44,342 nt of DNA. It comes from Caldifarciminota bacterium (GTDB lineage: Bacteria > Hydrothermota > Hydrothermia > LBFQ01 > DSFT01). Positions 4,275-43,041 of the stretch are shown here, in pieces; position 1 is the stretch's first letter; every line of letters starts with the position of its first letter. Under the pieces are notes generated by a model that was not told the origin of the DNA, ran no database searches, and worked only from the letters and a program-made list of their open reading frames with translations. Location of the stretch: the NCBI GenBank assembly GCA_025060695.1, contig JANXBH010000014.1, forward strand, positions 1 through 44,342, written 5' to 3'. The position numbers were made by a program, and so were the translations under genes.

Positions 4275-4288
4275 TTTAAAATTTTAAA
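4275..4288 (-). promoter_or_regulatory. Palindromic promoter-like motif before phnC
   Basis: Exact TTTAAAATTTTAAA. On the minus strand TAAAAT is followed by 7 bases and then the ATG, which would give a leaderless transcript if this is a -10 element. It overlaps the last codons and stop of the upstream gene. No SD site is present. Confidence 0.5.
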
Positions 4289-4770
4289 GGTAATCTTGGA
4301 AGTTTTTTATCTTTTTCAGAGAGAATAGGGTTATCTACTGGCCAAGGTATAGACAATATTTCATCACTATAGATAATACCTCCCTCATATTCTTTATTAT
4401 AGTACTCATCTACAAGATATATTAAATTCGTATCCTCAAGAGCAAGAAAACCATGCCCATATCCCTTAGGAATAAATAATGCTTTATTTTCATCTAATTC
4501 AACAGAAATATAACGAAAATTCTTATAGTCCACAATAACGTCAAAAATTTTTCCAGTTATTACCTTAATAAATTTAGCCTGCTCCTTTGGATATCTCTGA
4601 AAATGAATACCTCTTAATACATTTTTTCTTGAAAATGAATGATTCAATTGAACAAAATGGACATTTATATTTACTTCTCTCATTACCTCCATAAAATAGC
4701 CTCTATCATCTTCGTATTTATCCAATTCAAACAGTATTACTCCTTCTAATTCTAAAGGAACTATCTTCAC
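4276..4770 (-). CDS. rfbC: dTDP-4-dehydrorhamnose 3,5-epimerase-like protein (RfbC/RmlC family)
   Basis: A 164-residue cupin of the RmlC family, slightly shorter than the usual 175-185. Family motifs are present: RGYF (23-26), the catalytic His in RGIHFQ (H56), Lys in QAKFIKV (K67), the IPKGYGHGF strand (100-108) and a Tyr-rich YLVDEYY segment (118-124), then GGIIYSDE and IPWP. In known pathways it makes dTDP-L-rhamnose precursors for surface polysaccharide. No rfbA, rfbB or rfbD lies nearby. The gene overlaps the PhnD-like gene by 4 bases and is 2 bases from the PhnC-like gene, so it is translationally tied to a transporter cassette, which is unexpected. It could act on another nucleotide sugar. 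Confidence 0.8.
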   Translation of the reverse strand: MKIVPLELEGVILFELDKYEDDRGYFMEVMREVNINVHFVQLNHSFSRKNVLRGIHFQRYPKEQAKFIKVITGKIFDVIVDYKNFRYISVELDENKALFIPKGYGHGFLALEDTNLIYLVDEYYNKEYEGGIIYSDEILSIPWPVDNPILSEKDKKLPRLPLKF

Positions 4771-5603
4771 CTAATATTTAAAAGCTTCATAGTCTCTCTT
4801 ACTACTTGATAATCACTATCTTTTGCAGGAACAATGCCATCCCAACTATAAACTTTCTTTAGTATTTCCATTGCCTCTTTGTCATCGTTCAATTCTAAAA
4901 AGACTTGTTTAATTTTCTCTCTTAGGACTGTATCTAATCCTGCTCTTACAACTATTCCATCATTCGGAATACTATCAGTATATGCAATAATTTCAATTTT
5001 ATCTTTTATATCTTTATATTCTTTTAAAAGTCTATTTTCCGCACCTTCAAAAGTTGTAGCTAAGTCCGCTTCGTTATTATATACTGCTAATATTGCATTA
5101 TCGTGAGAACCTGTCTGTATTCTATCTTTAAAAAACTTATCTGGGTCAATACCAATTTTTAACATATATGCTTTAGGAAATATATAACCACTTGTAGAGG
5201 CAGCGTCAGGATATGCCCAAATTTTACCCTTTAAATCATTTAAATTTTTAGCACTCCCTTTTCTTACAACAAACTGAGACCTGTAATATGCATGACCATT
5301 TCTTATAGCTTTTAAAATAATATCCGCCTTATACTTCTCATATGCTAAAATGTAGCCAAAGGGAGGCAAAAAAGCGATATCTATTTTATTACTACCTAAA
5401 GCCTCAACAAGCGCTGTATAGTCAGTTGCTAAGTACGACTTTAATTTCATATTTAATTTTCTTGAGAGTATATCAACGAGTGGTTTAGTAGTAGTTGCTA
5501 TTTCTTCAACTTCTGCGGATGGGACAAAACCAATAACTAAAACCTTTTCCTTCTTACAACCTAATATAATCCCTAATAGTGGAACTAATAGAGAAAACAT
5601 CAT
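4767..5603 (-). CDS. PhnD-like substrate-binding lipoprotein of an ABC importer
   Basis: A 278-residue protein of the phosphate/phosphite/phosphonate-binding PhnD family, seen in the VLVIGFVPS start of the mature domain, LVEALGSNKIDIAFLPPFGYI, VRKGSAKNLNDLKGKIWAYPD, STSGYIFPKAYM and the DLATTFEGAE segment. The signal MMFSLLVPLLGIILGC ends in a lipobox with Cys16 and lacks any basic N-terminal residue. It should be anchored in the envelope and deliver ligand to a permease energised by the PhnC-like ATPase two genes downstream. The gene follows an HMA lipoprotein by 6 bases with no clear SD site. Whether the ligand is a phosphonate, another oxyanion or something metal-related cannot be read from the sequence. 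Confidence 0.8.
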   Translation of the reverse strand: MMFSLLVPLLGIILGCKKEKVLVIGFVPSAEVEEIATTTKPLVDILSRKLNMKLKSYLATDYTALVEALGSNKIDIAFLPPFGYILAYEKYKADIILKAIRNGHAYYRSQFVVRKGSAKNLNDLKGKIWAYPDAASTSGYIFPKAYMLKIGIDPDKFFKDRIQTGSHDNAILAVYNNEADLATTFEGAENRLLKEYKDIKDKIEIIAYTDSIPNDGIVVRAGLDTVLREKIKQVFLELNDDKEAMEILKKVYSWDGIVPAKDSDYQVVRETMKLLNIR

Positions 5604-5609
5604 TACAAT

Positions 5610-5933
5610 CTAATTTAACTTTTTTAAACCCTTATAAGTATAACCTACTTTTTCAACAGCTTCCTTTATCCTTTTCTCGTCAAAAGTATATCCATCTTTT
5701 ATTACTACATGAAATACATCGTCCTTAGCATTATATTTGACATAAGCTATTTCCTCAAGGGATTTTAGTGATTTAATTATAGTTTCTACGCAATGAAGAC
5801 AGGATATACCTCCAACACTTATAGCCATGCCAGAATTTTGCTCTATACTAACTGCTGCGGTATTGCTCTTTTCTTTCCCTGGACATGCAAGCGTTATTCC
5901 AAGAAGTGAAAAAAACATTGTAGTTAAATACAT
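5610..5933 (-). CDS. Lipoprotein with a heavy-metal-associated (HMA) domain
   Basis: A 107-residue protein with the signal MYLTTMFFSLLGITLAC (lipidated Cys17), a short linker, then an HMA fold carrying the metal-binding motif GGISCLHC (Cys45 and Cys48) and a conserved GYTY near the end. It resembles MerP/CopZ but is tethered to the membrane outside the cytoplasm. The start at 5933 is preferred because a GGAGG lies 7 bases upstream. A start nine codons earlier (5960) would overlap the upstream membrane-protein gene and put basic residues before a lipobox already complete. It probably binds Cu+ or a related soft metal and passes it along. The neighbours are a cytoplasmic HMA protein, a DUF2892 protein and the PhnD-like lipoprotein. 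Confidence 0.8.
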   Translation of the reverse strand: MYLTTMFFSLLGITLACPGKEKSNTAAVSIEQNSGMAISVGGISCLHCVETIIKSLKSLEEIAYVKYNAKDDVFHVVIKDGYTFDEKRIKEAVEKVGYTYKGLKKLN

Positions 5934-5935
5934 AC

Positions 5936-6085
5936 TTAACCCTCCTTTTTTAATGGACATGTTGAAATTCCAAAAAATTTATATATTAGACAAAAAGGAT
6001 GTTTAACAATCAGGAATGTATATATTAAGATAACACCCAAAATTATTCTTACTAATCTATCCACTAAACCAACATTGCTAATCAT
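5936..6085 (-). CDS. DUF2892 (YgaP-type transmembrane) small membrane protein
   Basis: A 49-residue ORF fills the gap between the two HMA genes. It reads MISNVGLVDRLVRIILGVIL, then a hydrophobic stretch, then IYKFFGISTCPLKKEG. This is the DUF2892 pattern: NVG..DR..R...G, two hydrophobic segments, and a terminal GI.TCPL. Members are small inner-membrane proteins, in YgaP fused to a rhodanese domain, and occur beside sulfur or metal genes. The ATG overlaps the end of the upstream HMA gene by 8 bases. The TAA lies 2 bases before the start of the next gene, whose GGAGG is inside this ORF, so it fits the operon exactly. The terminal Cys and Cys32 could bind metal or sulfur; that is inference. Confidence 0.8.
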   Translation of the reverse strand: MISNVGLVDRLVRIILGVILIYTFLIVKHPFCLIYKFFGISTCPLKKEG

Positions 6086-6293
6086 ATTTAATAACCTCTT
6101 TCACCTCATATCCTTTATTAACTATAGAAGAAACAATCTCCTCTATATTTTCTTCTTTTGCATAGAACTCCGCACTTTTTCTTTCAAGAGAAATATCTAT
6201 ATTTCTTGCATCTAATTTTTCTAATACTCTTCTAATTGAATTTACACAACCTTCACAATTCATTCCTTCAACTATCAACTTATATTTTTTCAC
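6078..6293 (-). CDS. Cytoplasmic HMA-domain metallochaperone (CopZ-like)
   Basis: A 71-residue single HMA domain with the metal site GMNCEGC (Cys13 and Cys16) and the family pattern of an amphipathic helix (VNSIRRVLEKL) followed by a second strand and the NKGYEVKEV end. It has no signal sequence, so it acts in the cytoplasm, probably as a Cu+ chaperone. It uses a GTG start. There is no SD; the AT palindrome lies 2 bases upstream, making this the first gene of the minus-strand operon. A P-type ATPase partner is not in the window. Confidence 0.85.
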   Translation of the reverse strand: MKKYKLIVEGMNCEGCVNSIRRVLEKLDARNIDISLERKSAEFYAKEENIEEIVSSIVNKGYEVKEVIKYD

Positions 6294-6295
6294 GG

Positions 6296-6309
6296 TTTTA
6301 AATTTTAAA
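6296..6309 (-). promoter_or_regulatory. Promoter-like motif of the HMA operon
   Basis: On the minus strand CTTTAAAATTTAAAA precedes the GTG start, with 8 bases between TAAAAT and GTG. No SD site is present. It lies in the 42-base gap between divergent genes. Confidence 0.5.
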
Positions 6310-6320
6310 GTATAAAAACA

Positions 6321-6330
6321 CCTTAAAATT
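6321..6330 (+). promoter_or_regulatory. Promoter-like motif of the flippase-like gene
   Basis: CCTTAAAATT, with TAAAAT followed by 6 bases and then the ATG at 6336. No SD site is present, so a leaderless transcript is suggested. Confidence 0.4.
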
Positions 6331-6335
6331 CCAGT

Positions 6336-7199
6336 ATGTTTGATTATAAGAAGATTCTTAAAGCCTTTAAAATCTTCCTGATTTTTTACATTATGGTAAG
6401 TTTTATATTTCTTACATTTTTTTCTGGTAAGGAACTATTAGTTATATTGAAATCTGTAAATATTCTTTACTTTTTACTGGGAATTTTAAACTGGGGGTTT
6501 TTTATTGTTTTAGATAGTTTGAGAGTGTTAATTTTAAGCAGAGGCTTAGGTAAGAGCTTAGATATAAAAACATCAGTAGAATTTATTACATCTGGTTCAT
6601 TTTTAGCACTTATTACACCATTCGGTAGTGGGGGATTACCTTATCAGATATGGCTACTTAATAAATTTGGTTTTTCAATTCAAGAAACTATAGCTTTAGT
6701 TCTTACAAGAGGTCTGTGCATATTTATTCCATACTTAACCTTTCTTCCTTTTACAATAAAATACATAAGTGCAAACTTCGTGAGAATTTTCTTAATATAC
6801 GCAATAGTAGTAGCAATTGGTTTTCTCATTTTCTTTATATTAAGGAAGAATTATAGAGAAAAGTTAAGGAGCATAAAGCTAAGATTTCTTATTTTCGCAA
6901 TAGTTCTAAGCTTTCCGGCTCAAGTAGTATACCTAAGTTTTTTATTTATTGTCCTAAAATCGTTATCTGTTAATATAGATTATTTCTCTGCGTTTTTTAG
7001 ACAATTAATTATGCAAATTTCAACATATTTTCAAATTACACCTGGCGGTCTTGGACTATCCGAAGCTATTTCATCAATTATAATTTCAGAAAATATTGAT
7101 TTTGCATATATAGGTATTAGCATTGTTTTATGGAGGCTATTTACGGGTTATCTTAGCGGATTTTTAGGTTTCTTCTTTGTAATAAAAAGAATAAAATAG
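6336..7199 (+). CDS. Flippase-like integral membrane protein (LPG synthase TM / UPF0104 family)
   Basis: A 287-residue polytopic membrane protein with about eight hydrophobic helices. Diagnostic motifs of the lysylphosphatidylglycerol-synthase transmembrane family are visible: FGSGGLPYQIWLL (about residues 94-106), LVLTRGL, and the C-terminal TPGGLGLSEA. Members of this family move or modify lipids in the inner membrane, and some associate with polyprenyl-linked glycan pathways. The soluble aminoacyl transferase domain of true MprF is absent. The gene stands alone, divergent from the HMA operon and convergent with the sialidase-like gene. There is no SD; the start ATG follows a TTAAAATT element by 6 bases. 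Substrate unknown. Confidence 0.8.
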   Translation: MFDYKKILKAFKIFLIFYIMVSFIFLTFFSGKELLVILKSVNILYFLLGILNWGFFIVLDSLRVLILSRGLGKSLDIKTSVEFITSGSFLALITPFGSGGLPYQIWLLNKFGFSIQETIALVLTRGLCIFIPYLTFLPFTIKYISANFVRIFLIYAIVVAIGFLIFFILRKNYREKLRSIKLRFLIFAIVLSFPAQVVYLSFLFIVLKSLSVNIDYFSAFFRQLIMQISTYFQITPGGLGLSEAISSIIISENIDFAYIGISIVLWRLFTGYLSGFLGFFFVIKRIK

Positions 7200-7215
7200 C
7201 CCCCAAAGGGGGCTA
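7197..7215. terminator. Bidirectional terminator hairpin
   Basis: TAGCCCCC (7197-7204) and GGGGGCTA (7208-7215) pair around an AAA loop between convergent genes. The TAG stop of the plus gene is the first three bases of the stem. There is no long T-run, but the stem is nearly pure G-C in an AT-rich genome. Confidence 0.75.
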
Positions 7216-7220
7216 TAACA

Positions 7221-8921: not shown

Positions 8922-8931
8922 ACTCTACCTC

Positions 8932-9861: not shown

Positions 9862-9873
9862 AACTCCACCTCC

Positions 9874-12096: not shown

Positions 12097-12106
12097 ACAC
12101 ACCTCC

Positions 12107-18300: not shown

Positions 18301-18591
18301 AGGAGATACCGTTCTATCAGCCTCTACTACTAAGTTTTTAAGAGTAAACGGACTATATCCTGTAAATTCTACCTTTAGCGTATAAGTTCCAGGTGGGACT
18401 CTTAATAGAACAAATTCCCCATTTTCATCAGTATAAGTTCCAATTCCGATTTCCTCAAGATATACGGCAGCGGCAACGATGGGTTGTCCACTTTTCGCAT
18501 CTACAACCTTACCTGTTATCTTTCCATACTGGGCATATGCAACACCCCATAAACCAAGTACAAAGATTAGCAACTTTGTAAGTTGCTTCAT
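15334..18591 (-). CDS. TonB-dependent outer-membrane receptor with N-terminal carboxypeptidase-regulatory-like domain
   Basis: About 1085 residues. After a signal (MKQLTKLLIFVLGLWGVAYA) comes a CarboxypepD_reg-like domain (GKITGKVVDAKSGQPI to VVEAD), then a plug domain (QALQLQAGVRRYGGFLQIRG, VNKGGFGAEFGNAASGVVEV) and a long beta barrel ending PRNVEIGIEINWRR. It takes up a large ligand using energy from the adjacent ExbB/ExbD/TonB system. The start at 18591 is chosen because GGAGG lies 8 bases upstream; the longer frame from 18612 has no signal or SD support. It heads the operon that includes PorV and the secreted proteins. The ligand is unknown. Confidence 0.88.
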   Translation of the reverse strand: MKQLTKLLIFVLGLWGVAYAQYGKITGKVVDAKSGQPIVAAAVYLEEIGIGTYTDENGEFVLLRVPPGTYTLKVEFTGYSPFTLKNLVVEADRTVSPPGGIIKLQETGVVLQEQVVIAREPVVKKDITASVDKIRSEKLQSLPVANVEQALQLQAGVRRYGGFLQIRGGRVGEVAYVVDGADLRDPYNNARTPNLPLSSISEVSVNKGGFGAEFGNAASGVVEVVTKEGTDKYEFQLRARTSNYSALNNIYLGSYAFGRGLANFLSSSEGDIYAKYLSKRYLGSLYDEIYAYEILRHKVYNKMNFKSEDPLFEYLKPYYTDGMPFGENYYNMKPNLNRFEFSASGPIVKKYLRFSGSIDIQSGNGRFHRLNKGESPTMSTKYNQFNYQLKLTSFITQRFKLFGTTVGTNSLNSYWHPEWRLAPSHFTSGIKFDYKGYILGFNYLWSPKTYFELRAGRYYTNITSNIFEDINVNGIDDFADRDSDGYIEIDTSALLYKLSVGSETYTYGERCIDLINEIKVNPNFSESTGIPNVLEVKSFWWNSLILRCYPQDRRNITLVTGITQTGDTITTTLEDPRVNQPGFKRLFLLSNLKLPTPSGYDRSSFWWVRNYTDQIRFDYVAQDFFNLKNHEVKVGFEYRNIRLRQDDWDFASGTNLYPDIVDANPKSYAFYVRDKIEFEGLIANVGLRFDYFDPNAYIPADFDVPIKEEYYSIINTITPDALDGAFTWDRGYGIRRDTLIMYNPVKVKPTYYISPRIGISHPISENDVLHFTYGHYFQVPQLVRLYMNQWWIAQGAYPIMGNPSLKPEKTISYELGIRHAFNPYSFIDITGYYKDIYDLIQTKSYYIHFIRNGVKERQAKWYTVYVNEDYASVRGLEIQLSKQLGGFLPFLFFDLNYTFQVARGSNSSPNANYLNNYYGIAPGYTQEYYLDWDQRHGVVLNIGLNVPLSNNNVWLSGFGGSLIYTYGTAQPYSPQLRSPRDVLELTNSLRFYGQNNVDLNLFKLYNVLGADIRFFANIYNLLNDKELITYSDLDYWSAFGPNSTYCQNNQPECQGLSAAEGQTRDISVYNAPRNVEIGIEINWRR

Positions 18592-18615
18592 TTTTATAAC
18601 CTCCATTAGCAAAAC

Positions 18616-18627
18616 TTAAATTTTAAA
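18616..18627 (-). promoter_or_regulatory. Promoter-like motif of the TonB receptor operon
   Basis: On the minus strand GCTTTAAAATTTAAG. Here TAAAAT is 28 bases from the ATG, leaving room for a short leader with a GGAGG site, unlike the leaderless cases. Confidence 0.45.
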
Positions 18628-18635
18628 GCACATTA

Positions 18636-20789: not shown

Positions 20790-20803
20790 TTTAAAATTTT
20801 AAA
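20790..20803 (-). promoter_or_regulatory. Palindromic promoter-like motif of the exb operon
   Basis: Exact TTTAAAATTTTAAA; TAAAAT on the minus strand is 10 bases from the exbB ATG. No SD site is present. Confidence 0.5.
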
Positions 20804-20817
20804 GCCAGTGATTAGCC

Positions 20818-20828
20818 TTAAAATTTTA
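20818..20828 (+). promoter_or_regulatory. Promoter-like motif of tRNA-Ala
   Basis: CCTTAAAATTTTAG, with TAAAAT 17 bases before the mature 5' end of tRNA-Ala. It is the second such palindrome in a 56-base divergent gap. Confidence 0.45.
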
Positions 20829-20841: not shown

Positions 20842-20914
20842 GGGGCGGTAGCTCAGTTGGGAGAGCGCCTGAATGGCATTCAGGAGGTCGGGGGTTCAAA
20901 TCCCCTCCGCTCCA
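20842..20914 (+). tRNA. tRNA-Ala (GGC anticodon)
   Basis: A complete 73-base cloverleaf: acceptor GGGGCGG paired with CCGCTCC including the G3:U70 identity pair of alanine tRNAs, D-arm GCTC/GAGC, anticodon stem CCTGA/TCAGG around loop ATGGCAT (anticodon GGC), T-arm GGGGG/CCCCT with TTCAAAT, discriminator A. CCA is not encoded. A protein start codon follows after only 5 bases. Confidence 0.97.
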
Positions 20915-28984: not shown

Positions 28985-29003
28985 AATATTGAAAATTATA
29001 AAG
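28985..29003 (-). promoter_or_regulatory. Possible -10 element of the OmpA-like gene pair
   Basis: On the minus strand TTATAATTTTC; TATAAT is 10 bases before the ATG at 28984, the same geometry as the AT palindromes elsewhere. No SD site is present in the 21-base gap. Confidence 0.4.
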
Positions 29004-29005
29004 TA

Positions 29006-31309: not shown

Positions 31310-32448
31310 TTATATAGCTCCAAAAGATAGCTTTTTATCTTCTCTTCCTGCTCTCTTTCATTTTCTATATCATCAACTTCAGAAATAATCTTAATAATAT
31401 CATCGTAGTATTTACCTAAGATTGCTGACTTATAGTTATCTTCAGTACTTATAGAGAACTTCTTAATTTCATCTTTTATGCTTATTATTGTGTTAATGTG
31501 ATAGAATTTAAATGAAGAAATAAAAGATTTTATCTCTACTATAGCATCAGAAGGTATATTCTTTAGTATCAAGGTTATTATTTTTTCTTCATCTTCATAG
31601 TTTTTGAGTGTATTTTTTAATTGCTCAATACTAAAGTCTATAAACTCAAGTCTTATAAATTCCCTTGGAGTTTCTAATTTATATTCATATTCTCTAAGCT
31701 CATTTTTGTCTAAAACTTCATATAAAATAACCCTCTTTTTACTATTTTCCTTTATAAAGCCATTTTCATCGTATTCATATTCATCATAACTTACTGCCTC
31801 AGTTGAGCCCACGTATGCATATTTTTTCTTTTTAATAGGAGTATGAAAGTGTCCTAAAAATATATAGTCAAAACTAATTAAATCCTCAATTGGAATATCT
31901 ACTGTATTTATCTTCTTCCTTCTTGAAACTTCCTCATCTACTATTTGATGTAAAGCTATAAAGTTAATTTCGTTCGTATTTAAGCTATCATTAATCCGAA
32001 AAACAAGTTCTCTCAATAGTCTCCTATCACTAAAATGTGGAATGCAATAGAAATTAATACCATTATAAGAAAATTTAACATTATCAATATTAAAACCATC
32101 TTCTTTGAAAATATGTTTATATTCAAAAACTTTTATATTTTCGGAAAAATAATTTAAAGGTTCAAGTGAGGAAATACCAATACTTGTATAAAAATCGTGA
32201 TTTCCGGGAACTATTAAAATCTTAAAATTCTTCGAAAGTTCAACGAATTTCTTATATACAATACTAAGGGTTATATTATCTGGTCTTCTCATATCAAATA
32301 CATCACCACTATGTAATACAATATCTGGATTTAAATCGTATACCAAATTTATAACCTCTTCAAAAGTTCTAATATAGTCTTTTTGACTTCCCGATATGTT
32401 GTATCTTTTTCTACCCAAGTGTGTATCTGAGAAATGTAAAATTTTCAT
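31306..32448 (-). CDS. sbcD: Mre11/SbcD-type exonuclease
   Basis: A 380-residue metallophosphoesterase with the complete metal-ligand set: DTHLG (Asp8, His10), GDVFD (Asp49), GNHD (Asn83, His84, Asp85), ALHQ and GHFHTP. It is the nuclease partner of the adjacent Rad50/SbcC gene. The C-terminal region beyond about residue 260 matches the capping and coil-binding part in length. It overlaps the DUF4159 gene start-to-stop by 4 bases and the sbcC gene by 4 bases, so all three are translationally coupled. Confidence 0.93.
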   Translation of the reverse strand: MKILHFSDTHLGRKRYNISGSQKDYIRTFEEVINLVYDLNPDIVLHSGDVFDMRRPDNITLSIVYKKFVELSKNFKILIVPGNHDFYTSIGISSLEPLNYFSENIKVFEYKHIFKEDGFNIDNVKFSYNGINFYCIPHFSDRRLLRELVFRINDSLNTNEINFIALHQIVDEEVSRRKKINTVDIPIEDLISFDYIFLGHFHTPIKKKKYAYVGSTEAVSYDEYEYDENGFIKENSKKRVILYEVLDKNELREYEYKLETPREFIRLEFIDFSIEQLKNTLKNYEDEEKIITLILKNIPSDAIVEIKSFISSFKFYHINTIISIKDEIKKFSISTEDNYKSAILGKYYDDIIKIISEVDDIENEREQEEKIKSYLLELYK

Positions 32449-33047
32449 TGTAAGGTTAGTGCATATAGAACTATGTTCATTCCAAATTTTAATGCGGTTT
32501 CTTGAACTTCTAACGGATCTCCGTGTCTATCCGTCCATCCATCTGATATATTAGTCTCATAAGTATATAGTAATACAAGTCTTTCTCCTATAAATATTCC
32601 GTACGCTTTTGGAGACTTATCGTCATGTTGATGTATTTTTGGAAGTTTATCGAACTTCCAGTAAATATTGAATATTGGATGACTTGTAGGGATTTCCTCC
32701 AGTTCTTTATCAGGAAATACTTTCTTAATTTCTCTTCTAAAATAGTAATCCATACCGTAGTCGTCATCTACATATAAAAATCCACCCCTTTCAAGATATT
32801 CTCTTAAATTCCTTGCATCCATATCGGAAAAATATACATTTCCATGCCCTGTCATAAACAATATAGGATACTTAAATATATCCTTACTTGAAGGTTTTAC
32901 TACTGCCTGTTTTTCAGAAAGGCTAATATTTGCGTATTTTTTTATAAATCTTACAAGATTGGGTATAACCTCAGGGTCATTGTACCAATCTCCTCCACCT
33001 TCATATTGTAATCTTGCGATTTGAAATGATAATAAAAATTGTATCAC
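32445..33047 (-). CDS. DUF4159 family protein
   Basis: A 200-residue protein with the DUF4159 pattern: ARLQYEGGGDWYNDP, FMTGHG, a YLERGGFLYVDDDYGMD segment, and near the end YTYETNISDGW followed by ETALKFGMNIVLYAL. Members have a class I glutamine-amidotransferase-like fold and often an export signal; no enzyme activity is firmly known. The signal here is short (MIQFLLSFQIA). It uses a GTG start; the overlapping ATG one base upstream reads straight into TGA. An AT motif lies 7 bases before it and there is no SD, so it heads the sbcD-sbcC transcript. Confidence 0.8.
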   Translation of the reverse strand: MIQFLLSFQIARLQYEGGGDWYNDPEVIPNLVRFIKKYANISLSEKQAVVKPSSKDIFKYPILFMTGHGNVYFSDMDARNLREYLERGGFLYVDDDYGMDYYFRREIKKVFPDKELEEIPTSHPIFNIYWKFDKLPKIHQHDDKSPKAYGIFIGERLVLLYTYETNISDGWTDRHGDPLEVQETALKFGMNIVLYALTLQ

Positions 33048-33051: not shown

Positions 33052-33062
33052 TAAATTTTAAA
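33052..33062 (-). promoter_or_regulatory. Promoter-like motif of the DUF4159-sbcDC operon
   Basis: On the minus strand CTTTAAAATTTA; TAAAAT is 7 bases before the GTG start. It lies in the 21-base gap after the sugar transferase gene, which is upstream on the same strand. Confidence 0.45.
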
Positions 33063-33068
33063 GTGTTT

Positions 33069-34370: not shown

Positions 34371-35537
34371 CTACTTCCTAAAGGATTCCATACCTGTTAA
34401 AAACTCGCCAAGTATTAAGGTATGAATTTCATATGTCCCCTCGTATGTCTCTACCGCTTCAAGATTCGTCATATGACGCATTATATGATAGTCTAACATT
34501 ATACCATTTGCACCTAATATTGACCTTGCCATTTCTGAAACAACTTTTGCAGCCCTTACATTATATCTCTTAGCATAAGAAATATGATAATGGGACAATT
34601 TTCCTTCTTTTTCAAGCTCAGCTATTCTATATGCTATCAAATTAGCATTTTGAGTGTAAGTTAAAATATCAGCTAATTTTTGCTGGGTTAACTGATAACT
34701 TGCTATTGGATTTGAGAACATTATTCTTTCCTTTGAATATTTTAGTGCTGTTTCAAGGCAAAACTGAGCTATTCCTACTGCACCCCAAGCTATACCAAAT
34801 CTTGCTTGGTTTAAACACATAAGAGGAGCCTTTAAACCTTCAGCAAAAGGAAGTCTATTTTCCTCAGGAACTTCAACATCATCTAAAATTACCTCCCCAG
34901 TATCAGATGCTCTTAGCGAAATTTTTCCTTTCATTTCCTTAGTTTTATAACCCATATCCCTTTCTACTATAAATCCTCTAATAATATTATCATCATCTTT
35001 TGCCCAAATTATTGCAATATCTGATATATTCGCATTAGTAATCCACATTTTAGTACCTCTTAAAATCCACTTATTTCCCTTTCTATACGCTCTTGTTTTC
35101 ATTGAAGATGGATCACTTCCTGCATCAGGCTCGGTAAGACCAAAACAACCAATAACTTCACAGCTTGCAAGTTTTGGAAGATACTTTTTTCTTTGATTCT
35201 CTGAACCAAATGTGAGTATTGGATACATTACAAGAGAAGTTTGAACACTTACAAAACTTCTAATACCTGAGTCTCCTCTTTCTAATTCTCTTGTTATAAT
35301 ACCATACGCAAGCTTATCAAAGCCTCCACCCCCATATTCAACGGGCATATAACTTCCTACAAGTCCAAGCTCAGCTATTTTGCTAATTAAACGTCTTGGA
35401 AACTTTCCATTTTCCCAATATTCTGAAATTATAGGTATTACTTCATTATCTACAAATTTTCTAACACTCTCTCTTAAAACCTTATATTCACTGGAAAGTT
35501 TTTCATCTAATAGGAAGAAATCTTCATATTTTAACAT
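34371..35537 (-). CDS. Acyl-CoA dehydrogenase, glutaryl-CoA dehydrogenase-like
   Basis: A 388-residue FAD enzyme. Family motifs include MPVEYGG, CFGLTEPDAGSD, MWITNA and QARFGIAWGAVG. The catalytic Glu sits in TYEGTYEIHTLILG (Glu366), the placement of glutaryl-CoA dehydrogenase. Arg93 in DSGIRSFVSVQTSLVMYPI matches the arginine that binds the glutaryl carboxylate in characterised enzymes. Glutaryl-CoA is therefore the best guess for the substrate, but no other lysine or benzoate catabolism gene is nearby. The start abuts an AT palindrome with no SD and is only 22 bases from the divergent TonB receptor. Confidence 0.85.
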   Translation of the reverse strand: MLKYEDFFLLDEKLSSEYKVLRESVRKFVDNEVIPIISEYWENGKFPRRLISKIAELGLVGSYMPVEYGGGGFDKLAYGIITRELERGDSGIRSFVSVQTSLVMYPILTFGSENQRKKYLPKLASCEVIGCFGLTEPDAGSDPSSMKTRAYRKGNKWILRGTKMWITNANISDIAIIWAKDDDNIIRGFIVERDMGYKTKEMKGKISLRASDTGEVILDDVEVPEENRLPFAEGLKAPLMCLNQARFGIAWGAVGIAQFCLETALKYSKERIMFSNPIASYQLTQQKLADILTYTQNANLIAYRIAELEKEGKLSHYHISYAKRYNVRAAKVVSEMARSILGANGIMLDYHIMRHMTNLEAVETYEGTYEIHTLILGEFLTGMESFRK

Positions 35538-35540
35538 AAG

Positions 35541-35553
35541 TTTAAAATTTTAA
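35541..35553. promoter_or_regulatory. Shared bidirectional promoter-like palindrome
   Basis: TTTAAAATTTTAA in a 22-base divergent gap. TAAAAT occurs on both strands and the two hexamers overlap at 35547-35548. Distances to the two ATGs are 9 and 11 bases. Neither gene has an SD site. Confidence 0.55.
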
Positions 35554-35559
35554 GGCACA

Positions 35560-37683
35560 ATGACGTTAATATTACTTAGTCAAACTTTAAGTATTATAGT
35601 AGTTGATGAAAATACGAGAGAACCTGTACCATATTGTGCAATTGAAATAGGTAATTTTGGTGGTTATTGTGATGAAAAGGGATTTTTTCAGATTAAATTA
35701 GAAAAAGGGAAATATAGAATAAAGGTTTCCTCTCTTGGATATGAGGATTATATAGAGGAGATAGAACTTAAAGGAAATGTTCAAATAAAGATTTATCTAA
35801 AACCAACTGGTATAAAATTATCAGAAATAGTTGTAAGTGCAAAAAAAGAAGCTTTTAAAAGGGACTTTTCAATAAATACTATACAAGAAATAGAAAAGTA
35901 TAGAACACTTCCTAGTCCATTTGAAAAAGACCTAATGCGAGTTATTCAAGTTCAGAGTGGTGTAGTATTTGTAAATGATTTTTCAGGAAGGTTTTCCGTA
36001 AGGGGCTCAGCACCATTTGAAAATTTAACTATTTTAGACGGTATGTTTTTATATAATCCTTATCATCTGGGTAGCTTTGTTTCTATATTTGATTTAGATG
36101 TTTTAAGTTCATTTCAATTTTTAAAAGGTGGCTATAGTGCAAAATATGGAAATGCAACAGGTTCTATAATTCATGCAAAAATTAGAGAAGGAGATTATAA
36201 AAACTATAAAAACTTATCAGTAATTAGCCCACTAACTACCAAGTTTTTACTTGAAGGACCAATCAGTAAATATAGTAGTTATATTCTAAGTTTTAGAAGA
36301 ACTTACATTCAAGAGTTTGCAAGACTATTTAACTTTGACTTACCTTATTACTTTTTTGATATTACAGGAAAAGTTTCTTATAATTTTTCGGATATTACAA
36401 ACCTTGGTATTTCATTTATAAATAGCGAAGATAATTTAAATTTTTCAAATATTGTATCTTCAAACTGGGGAAACAGAGGAATTAGTCTAAACTATAAAAC
36501 ATTTTGGAGGAACTATCTTCTAAATAGTTATATTTCTTATACCAAAAATTTTATAGATTTTCAATTATTTACGGGTGCTTTCGCTGTAAAGAATGAATTC
36601 GGTGTTTTAGCTAATAGACTGGATTTTGAATATATTACAAGTAGCTGGAATATAAACTTAGGATTTGACTTAGCGTTTATTAATGGCTACTACAGAAGTA
36701 ATATATTTGGCATTAAGATAAATAGAGAAGGTACCCCTTCTATTATTTCTACATTTTTTGATATAAAGCGAGAATTTAACAAACTTAGCCTAAATTTTGG
36801 GACAAGATTAAACTACTATAGACTTTCCGGATACTACTTTAAGGAAGATATATCGTTTGAACCAAGGTTTCAAGTAAAGTACTTTTTAAGTAATGTATTA
36901 GCATTGAAATCAGCATTGGGAATATACAATCAATACGCAGTTGGATTTTCAACAAACAATTTACAAATATCTTCCTTCTATTTTTGGGTACCCATATTTG
37001 AAAACTTATCACCCATAAAAACACCACATATAATCTTTGGAGTGGAAGGTATACCAAAAATTGGAAATTTTGAAATTACACTATTTTTAAAACCCTACTT
37101 TAATACAGTAGAACTAAATCCAAACATAGCAGATATTAATAATGTAGATAAGGAACTTTTAAAAAATGCAAAGGCAATTTCTTATGGTATGGATATATGG
37201 TTTGAAAATAGAAACTTAGAATTTTCTTATACTCTAAGTTTTGCATATAGTAAGCTTGAAACTGATAGCTTATGGTATAGAACAAGTTATGATAAGAGAC
37301 ACGTGCTAAACATCGTTTTAAAGAGAGGTCTTTTTAATGGAGAAATTGGAACCAAGCTTACTTATGCAAGTGGTAGTCCATATACTGATATTTTAGCAAG
37401 ATATATAGTAGCAAGTGTATATCCAGATGGAGGTTTAGAGTTTCCATTCTGGTACGAAGTATATAGTCCAAGAAATAGTTTAACACTTCCACCATATAGA
37501 AGAATAGATGTTTACTATGAGAAAAAGTATAAGAATGTGGAATTTGGTCTTGGAGTTATAAATATTATGAACTTTAAAAATCTTTTTGTTAGTTTCTATG
37601 ACTATTCAAAAAATCCACCAATAAAGACAGAAATAAATCAACTTCCAATTTTGCCCTATTTTACGATAAGATCGGTGTTTTAG
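35560..37683 (+). CDS. TonB-dependent receptor with carboxypeptidase-regulatory-like N-domain
   Basis: A 707-residue outer-membrane protein. A very short non-basic signal (MTLILLSQ) precedes a CarboxypepD_reg-like domain (SIIVVDENTREPVPYCAIEI to IKIYLKPT), then a plug (IQVQSGVVFVNDFSGRFSVRG, FLKGGYSAKYGNATGSIIH) and a barrel with many alternating strands ending LPYFTIRSVF. It is about two thirds the size of the receptor at 15334-18591 and not in an operon with secreted partners. The ATG follows the shared palindrome by 11 bases from TAAAAT and has no SD. Its stop overlaps the convergent transporter gene by 4 bases. Ligand unknown. Confidence 0.85.
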   Translation: MTLILLSQTLSIIVVDENTREPVPYCAIEIGNFGGYCDEKGFFQIKLEKGKYRIKVSSLGYEDYIEEIELKGNVQIKIYLKPTGIKLSEIVVSAKKEAFKRDFSINTIQEIEKYRTLPSPFEKDLMRVIQVQSGVVFVNDFSGRFSVRGSAPFENLTILDGMFLYNPYHLGSFVSIFDLDVLSSFQFLKGGYSAKYGNATGSIIHAKIREGDYKNYKNLSVISPLTTKFLLEGPISKYSSYILSFRRTYIQEFARLFNFDLPYYFFDITGKVSYNFSDITNLGISFINSEDNLNFSNIVSSNWGNRGISLNYKTFWRNYLLNSYISYTKNFIDFQLFTGAFAVKNEFGVLANRLDFEYITSSWNINLGFDLAFINGYYRSNIFGIKINREGTPSIISTFFDIKREFNKLSLNFGTRLNYYRLSGYYFKEDISFEPRFQVKYFLSNVLALKSALGIYNQYAVGFSTNNLQISSFYFWVPIFENLSPIKTPHIIFGVEGIPKIGNFEITLFLKPYFNTVELNPNIADINNVDKELLKNAKAISYGMDIWFENRNLEFSYTLSFAYSKLETDSLWYRTSYDKRHVLNIVLKRGLFNGEIGTKLTYASGSPYTDILARYIVASVYPDGGLEFPFWYEVYSPRNSLTLPPYRRIDVYYEKKYKNVEFGLGVINIMNFKNLFVSFYDYSKNPPIKTEINQLPILPYFTIRSVF

Positions 37684-38984
37684 GGTGAGAAATTATATGT
37701 AATAAGAATATTTAAGATAACAGAAATTAAATCTAAAAATACACCATATTTTACCATCTCTTTAAAACTAACAAATCCTAAAGAGTAGGCAAGCATATTT
37801 GATGGGGTTCCTATAGGCATCATAAATCCTGTGGAAGAACCAATAGCAATTACCGCAGAAAGTCCTGAAACTTTTAGGTTTAAACTACGAGCCATTTCTA
37901 TAGAAATGGGTATTAATAGAGAAGCTGTAGATGTATTAGAAGATATTTCCGTTATCAAAAGAGTAATAATTGCCATAGTTATTAATACGATAAGTGGTGA
38001 AAGCCCAAGATTTACTACTGTATTTTCTATAATTTCTGATTTCATCAACATTTGAGAAAGTGCAAAACCACCACCGAATACAAATAGTGTATCCCAATGA
38101 ATTTTCCTAATATCTTCTAAGTCAACTATTTTAAATACTACTAAAAAGATGGAAGATATCAAAATAATAGTCGTTTCATCAAGAAATTTAAAGTAAGATG
38201 AAAAAATCCACAAGAAAATAGTAAAAATAAAGACCATAAGAGTAATCTTTCCTTCTTTTGAAAGTTTTTGATAACTTATTTCTATATCAACTTTCTTAAA
38301 ACCTATACGAAAAACGTTAATTGCAAAAAGTATAAAAATGAACTCCAAGGTAAGTGCATAGGGAAAAGCAAATTTAAACCAAGACCAAAAGCTTACTTCA
38401 ATATTTAAATTTTTCATCATACCCGCATATATCATATTAGGAGGAGTTCCAACTAAAGTAGAAATTCCGCCAATATTTGAAGAATACGCGGAAGATAATG
38501 CCAAAACCTTCGTTAGATTGCTTCTTGGGATTGGGGATATAATAGAAAGTGCAATAAGGGTAGCGGATGTATTCGTTATCCACATAGATAGGAAAAACAC
38601 TGTAAGAGAAAATCCTAAAAACATACCAAGTTCATTTTTTGGAAATAGCCTTAATAATAAGTTCAGTAAGAATAGATGAACATTATGTTTTTCAATAGCT
38701 TTTGCCAAAATAAAACATCCTAAAAATAAAAATATAACTGGTTCCGCATAACTTTTAGATATTTCTTTCATAGGTATATACCCTGATATAGAAGATACAA
38801 CAAGAGGAATAAATGAAGTTATTATAAGTGGGACTGCTTCGAATATCCACCAAAGTGCCACCCAAAAGATTGTCCCTAAAACAATCTTAACATGAAATTC
38901 AATAGGAAGAAGTTGAAAAGCTAAAAATCCAATAGGACCAATAAAGATTATAAGAATGTCAAAAATACCTCTTTCTTTCCTCAT
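37680..38984 (-). CDS. SLC13/DASS family anion (dicarboxylate or sulfate) sodium symporter
   Basis: A 434-residue membrane protein with about 11 helices. The family's two Ser-Asn-Thr-type motifs are visible: SMWITNTSATLIAL in the first half and EISSNTSTASLLIPI in the second. Each is followed by the helix-hairpin motif with TPPNMIYAG and GTPSNMLAYSLG. These form the sodium and substrate sites in VcINDY-type transporters. It imports di- or tricarboxylates, or sulfate, with sodium. The gene overlaps rpe by 26 bases, so it is translated from the same message. Confidence 0.88.
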   Translation of the reverse strand: MRKERGIFDILIIFIGPIGFLAFQLLPIEFHVKIVLGTIFWVALWWIFEAVPLIITSFIPLVVSSISGYIPMKEISKSYAEPVIFLFLGCFILAKAIEKHNVHLFLLNLLLRLFPKNELGMFLGFSLTVFFLSMWITNTSATLIALSIISPIPRSNLTKVLALSSAYSSNIGGISTLVGTPPNMIYAGMMKNLNIEVSFWSWFKFAFPYALTLEFIFILFAINVFRIGFKKVDIEISYQKLSKEGKITLMVFIFTIFLWIFSSYFKFLDETTIILISSIFLVVFKIVDLEDIRKIHWDTLFVFGGGFALSQMLMKSEIIENTVVNLGLSPLIVLITMAIITLLITEISSNTSTASLLIPISIEMARSLNLKVSGLSAVIAIGSSTGFMMPIGTPSNMLAYSLGFVSFKEMVKYGVFLDLISVILNILITYNFSP

Positions 38985-39588
38985 AACTCAAACTAAAAAA
39001 GGCTTTTCCCATTACAACTCTATCTACGTTCATTTTTTTTAGTTTTTCTAAGTTTTTAAAATTTACACCGCCATCTACAGTAATTTTAAAAGAAAGACTA
39101 TTTTTTATTCTAATTTCATTTAAAAAGTCCAATTTCCATAGAACTTCCTCTATCATCTCCTGGCCTGCAAAACCGGGATTAACAGTCATAACTATAACTT
39201 GTTCTATATCTTCAAGAAAAGGTAATGCATACTTAGGATCAGTTTCTGGATTTATCACTATACCAATACTATACCCATTTTCCCTTGAAATTTTAATACA
39301 TTCAAATGCTTCTTTTCCTAATTCTATGTGAACATCTACAATATTAGAGCATTCATAAAATTTTAATAAGTACTTTGATGGATTTTTTATCATTAAATGC
39401 GTATCTAAAATAAGAGCGGTCATTGACCTAATGGCACATACAATTGGCATCCCAAATGTTAAATTATCTACAAAATGTCCGTCCATTACGTCTAAATGAA
39501 TATATTTCAAATTGCACTCTTCTATACTTTTAATTTCCTCCCTTAACTTGGTAAAATCGCAGGCAATTATAGAGGGTAAAACTTCCAC
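38959..39588 (-). CDS. rpe: Ribulose-phosphate 3-epimerase
   Basis: A 209-residue TIM barrel that interconverts ribulose 5-phosphate and xylulose 5-phosphate. Metal and catalytic residues are visible: LPSIIACDF (Ser6, Asp11), HLDVMDGHF (His31, Asp33), THLMI (His64), MTVNPGFAGQ and TVDGGV. The start is GTG at 39588, directly after a TTTTAAAATTTAAAA motif with no SD. It has its own promoter despite lying close behind truA. Its end overlaps the next gene by 26 bases. Confidence 0.95.
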   Translation of the reverse strand: MEVLPSIIACDFTKLREEIKSIEECNLKYIHLDVMDGHFVDNLTFGMPIVCAIRSMTALILDTHLMIKNPSKYLLKFYECSNIVDVHIELGKEAFECIKISRENGYSIGIVINPETDPKYALPFLEDIEQVIVMTVNPGFAGQEMIEEVLWKLDFLNEIRIKNSLSFKITVDGGVNFKNLEKLKKMNVDRVVMGKAFFSLSYEERKRYF

Positions 39589-39603
39589 TTTTAAATTTTA
39601 AAA
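39589..39603 (-). promoter_or_regulatory. Promoter-like motif of rpe
   Basis: On the minus strand TTTTAAAATTTAAAA abuts the GTG; TAAAAT is 6 bases upstream. It is in the 17-base gap after truA. No SD site is present. Confidence 0.45.
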
Positions 39604-39605
39604 TC

Positions 39606-40328: not shown

Positions 40329-41186
40329 TTAAAAACTAACATACAAACTAGTTCTATGAGTTAATCCTAAATCCCTATGATAAAAACTTCCATAATCTAT
40401 TGAATAATTTTTGTATTTTATACCAAATCCAAACGAAGGTCTTGCACCCTTAAATCCACCTCTTATACTAACAATACCTAAGTTATACTCCAAACCAATA
40501 CTAAATCCTATAGAAAATCTATTTAAACTAATTAGCCTATCAAATTCTCTGCTTTCAAGTGTTGTGAAATCAAAACTTGAAGAAATAAGAAAGTTTTTGT
40601 AATTTATTGAAGAAGATAGGATAATCAAAGGAGGAATAAACTCTAAGGACTTACTATTCCAATATAAAAGCGATGGCACAAAGTCCTTAAAAATTATGGA
40701 AAAATTTTTAAAATTGGTAGACAAGTCAAAACCAATACCAAGAGCCATATACTTTGAAATACCTTGATATAGAAGCTTTGCACTTACACCAAAATTCTTC
40801 AATGCTATAGAAAAATATAGAGCGCTTGCAATGTAGTTTTCAACAGAACTAACGTATGGTCTATTATCAGAAGATGGAGGTCTTGATGTATCTGGTAAAG
40901 AAGTTAGTTCTATATTATCAGTTAAAACCAAATATAAACCAACTCCATATGGTCTATTTTTAAATTTATACGATATAGCACTTGCGCTTATACCTTCGTA
41001 TAGAAGCCCAAATCCAAAAAACAAACTTTCATCTATGCTATTTATATTGAAAGGATTATAAAATATAGAAGATGCACTATTTACATTGTAGTATGAAGAA
41101 CCAAGACCTATATTTCTTGCATCTAATTCTACTCTATAGACTTCTCCTGAAAAGTTTAAGAATTGAGAAATAAAAAAAATTAGCAT
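40329..41186 (-). CDS. PorV/PorQ-like outer-membrane barrel protein, second paralogue
   Basis: A 285-residue protein with the PorV-family opening VELDARNIGLGSSYYNVNSASSIFYNPFNIN, then a series of beta strands ending with an aromatic residue (LYVSF). The export signal is very short and non-basic (MLIFFISQFLN). It overlaps the secG stop by 1 base and precedes truA by 0 bases, so an outer-membrane protein is encoded between a translocase subunit and a tRNA enzyme. It may be a second T9SS shuttle or an unrelated barrel of the same family. Confidence 0.72.
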   Translation of the reverse strand: MLIFFISQFLNFSGEVYRVELDARNIGLGSSYYNVNSASSIFYNPFNINSIDESLFFGFGLLYEGISASAISYKFKNRPYGVGLYLVLTDNIELTSLPDTSRPPSSDNRPYVSSVENYIASALYFSIALKNFGVSAKLLYQGISKYMALGIGFDLSTNFKNFSIIFKDFVPSLLYWNSKSLEFIPPLIILSSSINYKNFLISSSFDFTTLESREFDRLISLNRFSIGFSIGLEYNLGIVSIRGGFKGARPSFGFGIKYKNYSIDYGSFYHRDLGLTHRTSLYVSF

Positions 41187-41500
41187 TATTTTTTAGGTTG
41201 TTGAGGTTGAACTGGTAATTGTTTCATAATATCTCCTTTTTTAATTGCTTCCTCAATTGCTGAGCCACTTGTAGCAGGTCTATTGATTAATGAAAGTATA
41301 AATGAAAGTATCATAAAAGCTGCACCAATGCCTGCGGTTAATTTTGTAAAGAATGTGACTGTTCCTTTTGGACCAAATACAGTTTCCGCACTCCCAAGAA
41401 AGCTTCCAAGTCCTGCACTCCTTGGCTGTTGTATCATTATAATTAAAATCATGAATATTACCAAAATAACAAATATAAAGAGCAAAAACCCATATAGCAT
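41186..41500 (-). CDS. secG: Preprotein translocase subunit SecG
   Basis: A 104-residue protein with two transmembrane helices separated by the SecG loop: MIQQPRSAGLGSFLGSAETVFG followed by KGTVTFFTKLTAGIGAAFM. The Pro-rich tail PVQPQQPKK is typical. It assists SecYE in protein export. The start ATG has no SD and follows TAAACT by 9 bases, so it heads the secG, PorV-like, truA transcript. It is divergent from coaD with 34 bases between. Confidence 0.93.
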   Translation of the reverse strand: MLYGFLLFIFVILVIFMILIIMIQQPRSAGLGSFLGSAETVFGPKGTVTFFTKLTAGIGAAFMILSFILSLINRPATSGSAIEEAIKKGDIMKQLPVQPQQPKK

Positions 41501-41505
41501 AGTTA

Positions 41506-41529
41506 TTAAAGTTTAAAGCATTAAAATTT
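41506..41529. promoter_or_regulatory. Divergent promoter-like motifs of secG and coaD
   Basis: TTAAAGTTTAAAG (41506-41518) reads CTTTAAACTTTAA toward secG, 9 bases from its ATG. TTAAAATTT (41521-41529) points to coaD, with TAAAAT 7 bases from its TTG start. Neither gene has an SD site. Confidence 0.4.
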
Positions 41530-41534
41530 CGGTT

Positions 41535-42017
41535 TTGAGAAAAGCAATTTATCCAGGTTCATTTGACCCTATTACAAACGGACATATAGATATTATAAAA
41601 AGAGCAGTAAAACTATTTGATGCGGTAATTATAGCAATAGCTCAGCCAAGACACAAAAAACCACTATTTAGCTTAGAAGAGAGAATATATCTTGCAAGGG
41701 AAAGTTTAAAAAACATAAGTAATATAGAAATTATGAGCTTCGATGGACTTTTAGTAGAATTTTGTAGGAAGTTAAATATAGATATTGTAATAAGAGGAAT
41801 TAGAGCAGTTTCAGATTTAGACTATGAATTTCAAATAGCATGGATGAATAGGAAACTATATAGCAACATTGAAACGATTTTTCTAATGCCATCAGAAGAA
41901 TATTTCTTTCTATCTTCAAGTTTAGTAAAAGAAGTTGCAATGTTAAAAGGAAATATAGATAATCTTGTCCCCAAGGTTGTAAAAGAAGCATTAATAAAGA
42001 AACTTAATTTAGGATAA
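41535..42017 (+). CDS. coaD: Phosphopantetheine adenylyltransferase
   Basis: A 160-residue nucleotidyltransferase that makes dephospho-CoA from 4'-phosphopantetheine and ATP. Motifs: AIYPGSFDPITNGH (TNGH at 14-17), VIRGIRAVSDLDYEFQ and FLSSSLVKEVA, all diagnostic for CoaD. The start is TTG; the family begins within a few residues of AIYPG, so no other start fits. It has no SD and is close behind a TAAAAT element, so a leaderless TTG-initiated message is implied. Its end overlaps the convergent malate dehydrogenase gene by 9 bases. Confidence 0.95.
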   Translation: MRKAIYPGSFDPITNGHIDIIKRAVKLFDAVIIAIAQPRHKKPLFSLEERIYLARESLKNISNIEIMSFDGLLVEFCRKLNIDIVIRGIRAVSDLDYEFQIAWMNRKLYSNIETIFLMPSEEYFFLSSSLVKEVAMLKGNIDNLVPKVVKEALIKKLNLG

Positions 42018-42941
42018 AAATCTATCTACTACTAATTGAAGTTCTTTAATATGTTTTGCACAATTATTTAAAAGCTCCATTTCCCTTTCGTCTAAATCAA
42101 GTTCTACAATTTTCTCTATACCATTTTTCCCAAGTACTATAGGCAAACCTATCACAACGTCGTTTAATTTATACTCACCTTTTGTATAAACACTTGCACT
42201 AATAAGCTTTTTAATATCCTTTATTATAATTTCTGCCATATATCCAGCAGCATCACCGGGTGCAAAAAATGCTGAAGTCCCCATTATTTGAACTATTTCT
42301 CCACCCGCATATTTTGTTTTATTTACTATTTCGTCTATATCACTTTCACTTAGTAATTTCGTAATTGAAATACCATTTACAGTTGTATATCTTACAAGAG
42401 GGACCATGTCATCACCATGTGTCCCAAGGACTAAACCTTGAACTTCATATGGTAAAACATTTAACTTTTGAGATACAAAATATGCAAGTCTTGAACTATC
42501 TAATACACCCGCTTGTCCAATTACTCTTTCTCTTTCAAATCCAAGAATTTTATATGCTGCATATGTCATTGCATCAAGAGGATTAGTTACTACTATTACT
42601 ATTGAGTTTTTTGCATATATCTTAATTTTCTCGCTTATATCTTTAATAATTTTAAAATTTACCTCTATTAAATCGTCTCTTGACATTCCGGGTTTTCTTG
42701 GAACACCCGCAGTTATTATTACAACATCAGAATCAGCAATATCTTCGTAATTATTTGAACCTTTTATCTTTCCTGAAAATCCTATTATCTGACTTGCCTG
42801 AGCTAAATCTAAAGCCTTTCCCCTTGCTATTCCTTCTACTATGTCAATTAAGACTATATCAGCTAAATCTTTATATAATAAATATCTTGCAGCTTCCGCA
42901 CCAACATTCCCTGCCCCTATGATAGAAACTTTATATCTCAT
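42009..42941 (-). CDS. mdh: Malate dehydrogenase (LDH-like type)
   Basis: A 310-residue NAD-dependent dehydrogenase. The Rossmann motif GAGNVG (9-14) is followed by Asp33 at the end of the second strand, which favours NAD. Substrate residues Arg82 and Arg88 in VPRKPGMSRDD mark malate rather than lactate, with Arg151 and His175 in LGTHGDD as the catalytic pair partner. It interconverts malate and oxaloacetate. The ATG lies 6 bases after the 3' end of tRNA-Asp with no SD, so the two are transcribed together. Confidence 0.93.
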   Translation of the reverse strand: MRYKVSIIGAGNVGAEAARYLLYKDLADIVLIDIVEGIARGKALDLAQASQIIGFSGKIKGSNNYEDIADSDVVIITAGVPRKPGMSRDDLIEVNFKIIKDISEKIKIYAKNSIVIVVTNPLDAMTYAAYKILGFERERVIGQAGVLDSSRLAYFVSQKLNVLPYEVQGLVLGTHGDDMVPLVRYTTVNGISITKLLSESDIDEIVNKTKYAGGEIVQIMGTSAFFAPGDAAGYMAEIIIKDIKKLISASVYTKGEYKLNDVVIGLPIVLGKNGIEKIVELDLDEREMELLNNCAKHIKELQLVVDRFLS

Positions 42942-42947
42942 TAAAAA

Positions 42948-43021
42948 CGGGGACGACGGGATTCGAACCCGCGACCTCTGGCGTGACAGACCAGCGTTCT
43001 AACCAGCTGAACTACGTCCCC
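42948..43021 (-). tRNA. tRNA-Asp (GTC anticodon)
   Basis: A complete 74-base cloverleaf on the minus strand: acceptor GGGGACG/CGTCCCC, D-arm GTTC/GAAC, anticodon stem CTGGT/GCCAG around loop CTGTCAC (anticodon GTC), T-arm GCGGG/CCCGT with TTCGAAT, discriminator G. CCA is not encoded. TTTTTA and then the mdh ATG follow directly. Confidence 0.97.
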
Positions 43022-43026
43022 GAAAG

Positions 43027-43041
43027 TTTTAAAATTTTAAA
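43027..43041. promoter_or_regulatory. Shared palindrome between tRNA-Asp and thiI
   Basis: TTTTAAAATTTTAAA in the 30-base gap. Toward the tRNA, TAAAAT is 12 bases from the mature 5' end. Toward thiI it is 16 bases from the ATG. A tRNA gene cannot use an SD or leader signal, so a role in transcription is more likely than one in translation. Confidence 0.6.

Follow-up and report, generated by a model that had tools for sequence, protein, structure and literature searches.

The window analysed here is a stretch of 44,342 nt, contig C5 of the draft genome of a Caldifarciminota bacterium (the host; 1.50 Mb, 77 contigs, 95% complete, ~30% GC and thus ~70% AT). Its protein-coding genes and its two transfer RNA (tRNA) genes are preceded in many places by copies of an AT-rich word, RCYTTAAAATTTT, built around the hexamer TAAAAT. 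The word is placed close to start codons at the heads of transcription units, is linked to RNA 5' ends, has no accompanying -35 element, is mutually exclusive with Shine-Dalgarno (SD) sites and is shared by some divergent units. These properties indicate that it is very probably the -35-less housekeeping promoter word of the genus, flush with RNA 5' ends and yielding leaderless or near-leaderless mRNAs at unit heads. The candidate promoter words of the window are listed below; spacings to start codons are counted from the end of the hexamer.

4278..4291, minus strand: word acctttaaaatttt before the ABC-transporter ATPase gene 3530-4273 (Pfam ABC_tran); 15.8 bits, 7 bases to ATG.
6299..6312, minus strand: word before the HMA-domain gene 6078-6293; 15.0 bits, 8 bases to GTG.
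6319..6332, plus strand: weaker word caccttaaaattcc before gene 6336-7199; 6.6 bits, 6 bases to ATG.
18617..18630, minus strand: word before the TonB-dependent receptor gene 15334-18612 (TTG) or 18606 (ATG); 16.3 bits.
20793..20806, minus strand: word before the ExbB/TolQ-like gene 20165-20785, overlapping the palindrome 20791-20802; 18.2 bits, 10 bases to ATG.
20814..20827, plus strand: word before tRNA-Ala 20842-20914; 17.9 bits, T of TAAAAT 23 nt 5' of the tRNA.
28992..29005, minus strand: word, TATAAT variant, before gene 27956-28984; 11.4 bits, 10 bases to ATG.
33052..33065, minus strand: word before gene 32445-33047 (GTG); 14.1 bits, 7 bases.
35542..35553, both strands: palindrome TTAAAATTTTAA, shared by the acyl-CoA dehydrogenase gene 34371-35537 (minus; 17.4 bits, 9 bases) and gene 35560-37683 (plus; 13.4 bits, 11 bases), in a 22-bp gap.
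39592..39605, minus strand: word before the ribulose-phosphate 3-epimerase gene 38959-39588; 8.9 bits, 6 bases to GTG.
41507..41520, minus strand: word, TAAACT variant, before the secG gene 41186-41500; 14.3 bits, 9 bases.
41517..41530, plus strand: word before the coaD gene 41535-42017 (TTG), back-to-back with the secG promoter; 13.9 bits, 7 bases.
43031..43044, minus strand: word before tRNA-Asp 42947-43022; 16.9 bits, T 17 nt 5' of the tRNA.
43025..43038, plus strand: mirror copy of the tRNA-Asp promoter before gene 43052-44341, in a 29-bp gap; 12.4 bits, T 22 nt 5' of ATG.

The two copies at tRNA-Asp together form the palindrome 43029-43040. All the protein-gene sites reported in the initial annotation, including the TAAACT and TATAAT variants, are present at the spacings it gave. 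The motif also precedes both tRNAs as it had claimed, at 17 bases for tRNA-Ala (plus strand) and at 11 bases for tRNA-Asp (minus strand), where it had counted 12. The cases at 18612/18606 and at 43052, whose site is common with tRNA-Asp, are additional. The copy at 4278..4291 (window 4276-4291) overlaps the stop and last codons of the upstream gene 4276-4770.

A 13-bp word at the heads of transcription units

Genome-wide counts refer to the 1.11 Mb sampled of the 1.50-Mb host genome. Genes (1130; 95% coding) were called with a dicodon gene finder that ignores the DNA 5' of the start codon, so their start positions are without bias towards the motif. The head set comprised 308 divergent gene heads and the contrast set 634 operon-internal genes; cluster-internal tRNAs were left out of the count of 29 tRNA units.

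Unseeded de novo expectation maximization over the 308 heads returned the word RCYTTAAAATTTT at 14.9 bits, with a gamma of 0.82, that is, ~82% of the heads use it. Shuffled input gave 0.07, and the motif discovery against a shuffled control that the initial annotation had proposed thus places the enrichment far above chance. The first T of TAAAAT lies at -12..-17 from the start codon in most motif heads, and the hexamer occurs ≤40 nt upstream in 227/308 heads versus 141/634 operon-internal genes. The pattern CTTTAAAATTTT, matched at ≥10/12 positions and confined to -10..-20, is found at 220/308 heads, whereas shuffling the upstream DNA leaves 4.4 and the interval -50..-60 has 15. The 12-mer TTAAAATTTTAA has 61 copies in the genome versus 15 for the reversed control, and 352 of the 403 genome hits scoring ≥13 bits (87%) lie upstream of a gene start or a tRNA.

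Aligned sites have R at -16, C at -15 (0.89) and T at -14 (0.80), followed by YTTAAAATTTT. The hexamer has the hallmarks of a sigma70 -10 element, with T-12, A-11 and T-7 at 99-100%, and its position agrees with that in the leaderless -10-adjacent class, where such a hexamer is centred ~10 bp 5' of the start codon. The TG of extended -10 (TGn) promoters was not found at -15/-14 of the aligned sites, which have C/T there. The -35 region of the aligned heads carries no information (Kullback-Leibler divergence ≤0.06 bits per position at -36..-33), the pair TTGACA-N16-18-TATAAT occurs at chance in the host (1 versus 1 in the control), and no other promoter motif was found in the 60 nt upstream of heads. 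The initial annotation's remark that no TTGACA-like -35 is obvious is strongly supported by these counts.

The word is equally a feature of stable RNA genes. It stands upstream of 28/29 tRNA units, with its T 13-23 nt before the tRNA, 34 nt upstream of the transfer-messenger RNA (tmRNA) and, as a 15.8-bit copy, ~70 nt upstream of the 16S ribosomal RNA (rRNA; locus L186, reverse strand), whose 3' end, read on the reverse strand, retains the anti-SD. Among protein-coding genes 328 have the motif only, 232 an SD site only and 1 both (Fisher P = 3e-44). An SD site thus occurs in 1/329 motif genes, as in the leaderless -10-adjacent class, and the earlier remark that heads with the motif lack an SD site extends to the whole sample.

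Within genes, antisense copies of the word are ~five-fold depleted (4 versus 21.8 expected from codon shuffles, ≥12 bits), and sense copies are not depleted (8 versus 11, same shuffles and threshold); the antisense depletion suggests selection against antisense promoters. The word is carried by 98/634 operon-internal genes, nearly all without an SD site, which suggests embedded promoters.

The primary sigma factor

The host encodes a full-length RpoD (locus L109; G000 C44:20313-21023). Its residue facing -12, which we take from alignments to be the equivalent of E. coli T440, is Ile in the host and Met in the congener; it is Thr elsewhere in the sampled class, with Ser in two genomes of family f4. 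The TGn-contacting residues H455 and E458 are kept. The RpoD proteins of the host's family, f1, also carry one extra residue directly behind the recognition helix of region 4.2. In E. coli sigma70, T440I alters recognition of base -12 (PMC2613000). The residue change and the insertion are only correlates of the word.

The word might instead be read by a factor other than RpoD, such as another sigma factor or an accessory DNA-binding protein, or through non-canonical contacts. Its 13 contiguous conserved positions, its ~15 bits and its C at -15, unlike TGn, would suit such a reader, and the host genome encodes three sigma factors. Use of the word at rRNA, tRNA and most heads nevertheless points to the primary sigma factor, as does the lineage-specific change of RpoD at the residue facing -12, and we regard another reader as unlikely.

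The palindrome and its use by divergent units

The core TTTAAAATTT is near self-complementary, yet the conserved word is directional, with RCY upstream and hardly any conservation beyond TTTT. The mirror score of single-use sites has a median of -2.9 bits and reaches ≥10 bits in only 22/339, against 22/26 of the sites between two divergent starts. Single-use sites show no enrichment of the symmetric AA extension needed for a complete palindrome (28/151 versus 31/113), and exact palindromes at one-direction sites (4276-4287, 20791-20802) are not above the rate expected from A-rich flanks. The proposal that the palindrome is kept even where one direction suffices is contradicted by these counts, and the mirror-score and AA-extension tests rule out the palindrome as the functional unit. 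It is very unlikely that the palindrome is the operator of a dimeric global regulator or nucleoid protein lying over the promoter. Such an operator would accord with the near-palindromic core and with the four-fold excess of the exact 12-mer over its control; against it stand the asymmetry and direction of the single-use word, the presence of the word at tRNA, rRNA and most mRNA heads, and the fact that no -35 or other -10 would then remain as promoter.

The complete palindrome, as judged from the arrangement of sites, consists of two promoter words that overlap on opposite strands, one for each of a pair of divergent units. Where the divergent gap is ≤28 bp, one palindrome is shared in 11/17 pairs; where it is 29-60 bp, two separate sites are present in 70/79 pairs and one pair shares. 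The T-to-T offset is exactly -9 or ≥+6. The 12 shared sites, a minority of all sites, have their Ts exactly 9 bp apart and occupy gaps of 18-29 bp; as in symmetric bidirectional promoters, a single -10 region between the divergent units there offers a usable hexamer on either strand. In units ≤28 bp apart the two copies would overlap head-on as the 16-bp palindrome CTTTAAAATTTTAAAG, one site serving both directions, and superposition of two promoters predicts transcription start sites (TSSs) 15 bp apart. Back-to-back promoters come as close as Ts 6 bp apart. At such distances each promoter has the opposite promoter, and behind it the opposite gene, as its upstream region, leaving no room for a dedicated -35.

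Promoter or translation signal

An Rfam search of the sampled DNA found only two riboswitches, as expected if most mRNAs are leaderless: a thiamine pyrophosphate (TPP) riboswitch (L011:17449-17562) and a cobalamin riboswitch (L082:5758-5926). In both cases the word lies not near the start codon but at the 5' edge of the aptamer, where its T falls at positions -9 and -1 relative to the Rfam match, so a start ~12 nt downstream would coincide with the beginning of the aptamer helix. The genes 3' of the riboswitches carry SD sites (AGGAGG and GTGAGGAG). The tRNA, rRNA and tmRNA heads, the riboswitches, the exclusivity with SD sites and the conservation between orthologues described below argue together for a promoter element rather than a translation signal. 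The promoter function suggested in the initial annotation is thus strongly backed by the sequence, as is its prediction of transcription starting at the start codon or a few bases from it. The 5' ends of tRNAs and aptamers, which lie at the corresponding distance from the word, agree indirectly with this prediction.

A translational role would make the AT-rich word a site for ribosomal protein S1, or an unstructured-mRNA site, within a longer 5' untranslated region whose true promoter lay elsewhere. The spacing between the word and start codons is SD-like, the word takes the place of SD sites, and a bias towards AT at -20..-10, seen in other phyla, has been debated as a possible S1 signal (PMC5397173). 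This role is highly improbable here: the word also precedes tRNAs, 16S rRNA and tmRNA, stands at the aptamer edge and not at the start codon of riboswitch genes, and leaves no other promoter motif in the 60 nt upstream. The tRNA, rRNA and riboswitch heads rule it out.

Distribution among relatives

The congener (24.8% GC in sampled DNA) has the same word in the same back-to-back arrangement. Among 69 orthologue pairs (median 73% amino acid identity) the word is present in both members of 17 and in only one member of 12. In 17/17 of the former, selected by motif score, the core positions are identical except position 4; the flanks are ~35% identical, which is close to random at such a composition. 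In a sister genus with 50% GC the pattern CYTTAAAATTTN4-9ATG occurs in 35-39 copies versus 0-1 in the control, and tRNAs are preceded by CCTTTAAAATTTT. In the neighbouring family f2 (53-54% GC), TARAAT adjoins start codons without the full word. Among 133 genomes of the phylum, CYTTAAAATTTN4-9ATG stands out strongly in family f1 alone, has a slight signal in f2 and is close to background in most others, which rules out a class-wide or phylum-wide word.

The other families of the class were sampled through small loci and pattern counts only. In families f3-f11, TTGACA-N16-18-TATAAT is found mostly in 7-55 copies versus 0-5 in the control (2 and 9 in f7). The class presents a series: canonical -35/-10 promoters in other families, TARAAT at start codons in the order (f1 and f2), the full word in f1, and the sigma change in the host genus only.

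That the motif merely reflects AT-rich composition (~70% in this genome) and gene-start bias has a negligible probability and is ruled out, since little of the signal is left when sequences are shuffled, windows shifted or patterns reversed, and the motif persists in the relatives with 50% GC.

RNase P and CRISPR

RNase P RNA (RF00010) was undetected in 4/4 genomes of family f1 and found in 26/27 other class members searched. Since tRNA clusters require processing at their 5' ends, either a very divergent enzyme or a protein-only RNase P like that of Aquificaceae (PMC10941002) is expected; a search for the protein-only enzyme with a simple PIN-like pattern gave no convincing candidate. In the host, the gene directly after rpmH (L011, reverse strand, ~6006) is yidD, and no rnpA lies in between. 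Arrays of clustered regularly interspaced short palindromic repeats (CRISPR) with CRISPR-DR2 repeats are present at L015:15409-16587 and at contig ends in L011, L082 and L086, several of them at contig edges.

Discussion

In the mechanism proposed here the promoter would be one contiguous 13-bp word lacking a -35, in which the -10 hexamer TAAAAT is preceded by a conserved RCYT (-16..-13) and followed by a T-rich flank. The word is presumably read through sigma regions 2.3-2.4/3.0 by RNA polymerase with RpoD, the primary sigma factor, and RNA would start ~12 nt 3' of the hexamer's first T. The placement of the word would put this start at, or 0-5 nt before, the start codon, making unit-head mRNAs leaderless or nearly so, and genes inside operons would use SD sites instead. 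In its full form, the proposal is that this lineage swapped the two-part -35/-10 promoter for a single word read by a primary sigma factor altered in region 2.4, with no other promoter sequence, welded to RNA 5' ends, and that overlapping copies act as symmetric bidirectional promoters with 15-bp TSS spacing. We advance this full form tentatively and judge it slightly less than evenly likely to hold in every part.

Several points weigh against the promoter interpretation. A clear site is missing at ~18-25% of heads; the word is richer in information, and longer as a contiguous stretch, than a normal sigma70 -10 element; and the region 4.2 helix of RpoD is retained. Gene starts are those of our own gene finder, and TSS positions derive from promoter geometry and the ends of RNA genes. 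Selection of the orthologue pairs by motif score inflates the identity of the core, so that its conservation is partly built in.

The host offers a near-pure case for two questions: how much DNA a bacterial primary sigma factor needs at minimum, and how leaderless translation can be the default at unit heads with SD sites persisting inside operons. Its relatives form a natural series across the class. Start-codon and operon annotation in such genomes could be improved, and the word is a very small promoter, including compact bidirectional forms, for synthetic use.

A literature search on the core TTAAAATTT as a promoter gave nothing relevant among the 12 best matches, and none was found on leaderless genes in WOR-3. 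Among the closest known systems are the leaderless genes of Deinococcus-Thermus (de Groot 2014; Zhong 2025, PMC12340547), in which a -10 hexamer likewise lies ~6-7 bp before the start codon, apart from the SD genes, and gives leaderless mRNA; in the host leaderless mRNAs are predicted. In Deinococcus-Thermus a TANNNT -10 motif serves about one third of genes beside classical -35/-10 promoters (PMC12340547), whereas in the host a 13-bp word stands at ~80% of divergent heads and before almost every tRNA unit, and classical -35/-10 pairs occur at chance. Bidirectional promoters with a symmetric -10 (Warman et al. 2021; PMC10268837, PMC12825309) resemble the shared sites in using one symmetric -10 region for both strands. 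TSSs at such promoters in E. coli are usually 18 bp apart, and also 10 and 23 (PMC12825309, PMC10268837); in the host the Ts are 9 bp apart and the hexamers overlap by 2 bp, a geometry that predicts a TSS spacing of 15 bp. At the host's shared sites both RNAs are mRNAs or tRNAs, and the gaps are 18-29 bp.

Extended -10 (TGn) promoters also have an upstream extension without a -35, and an upstream extension contacting sigma region 3.0 can substitute for the -35 (PMC2613000). The host extension is R-16 C-15 Y-14, unlike the TG at -15/-14, and according to the same review pure extended -10 promoters without a -35 match or an activator are not clearly known (PMC2613000). The T440I change of E. coli sigma70, which as cited there suppresses a -12 T to C promoter mutation (Siegele 1989, via PMC2613000), is natural in host RpoD, although -12 in the host is still T. 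Because -10-abutting leaderless genes are known in Deinococcus-Thermus, the kind of promoter is already known. What is new in the host is the 13-bp -35-less word, its near-exclusive use, including tRNA and rRNA, the quantised way in which divergent units share it, and the altered sigma factor.

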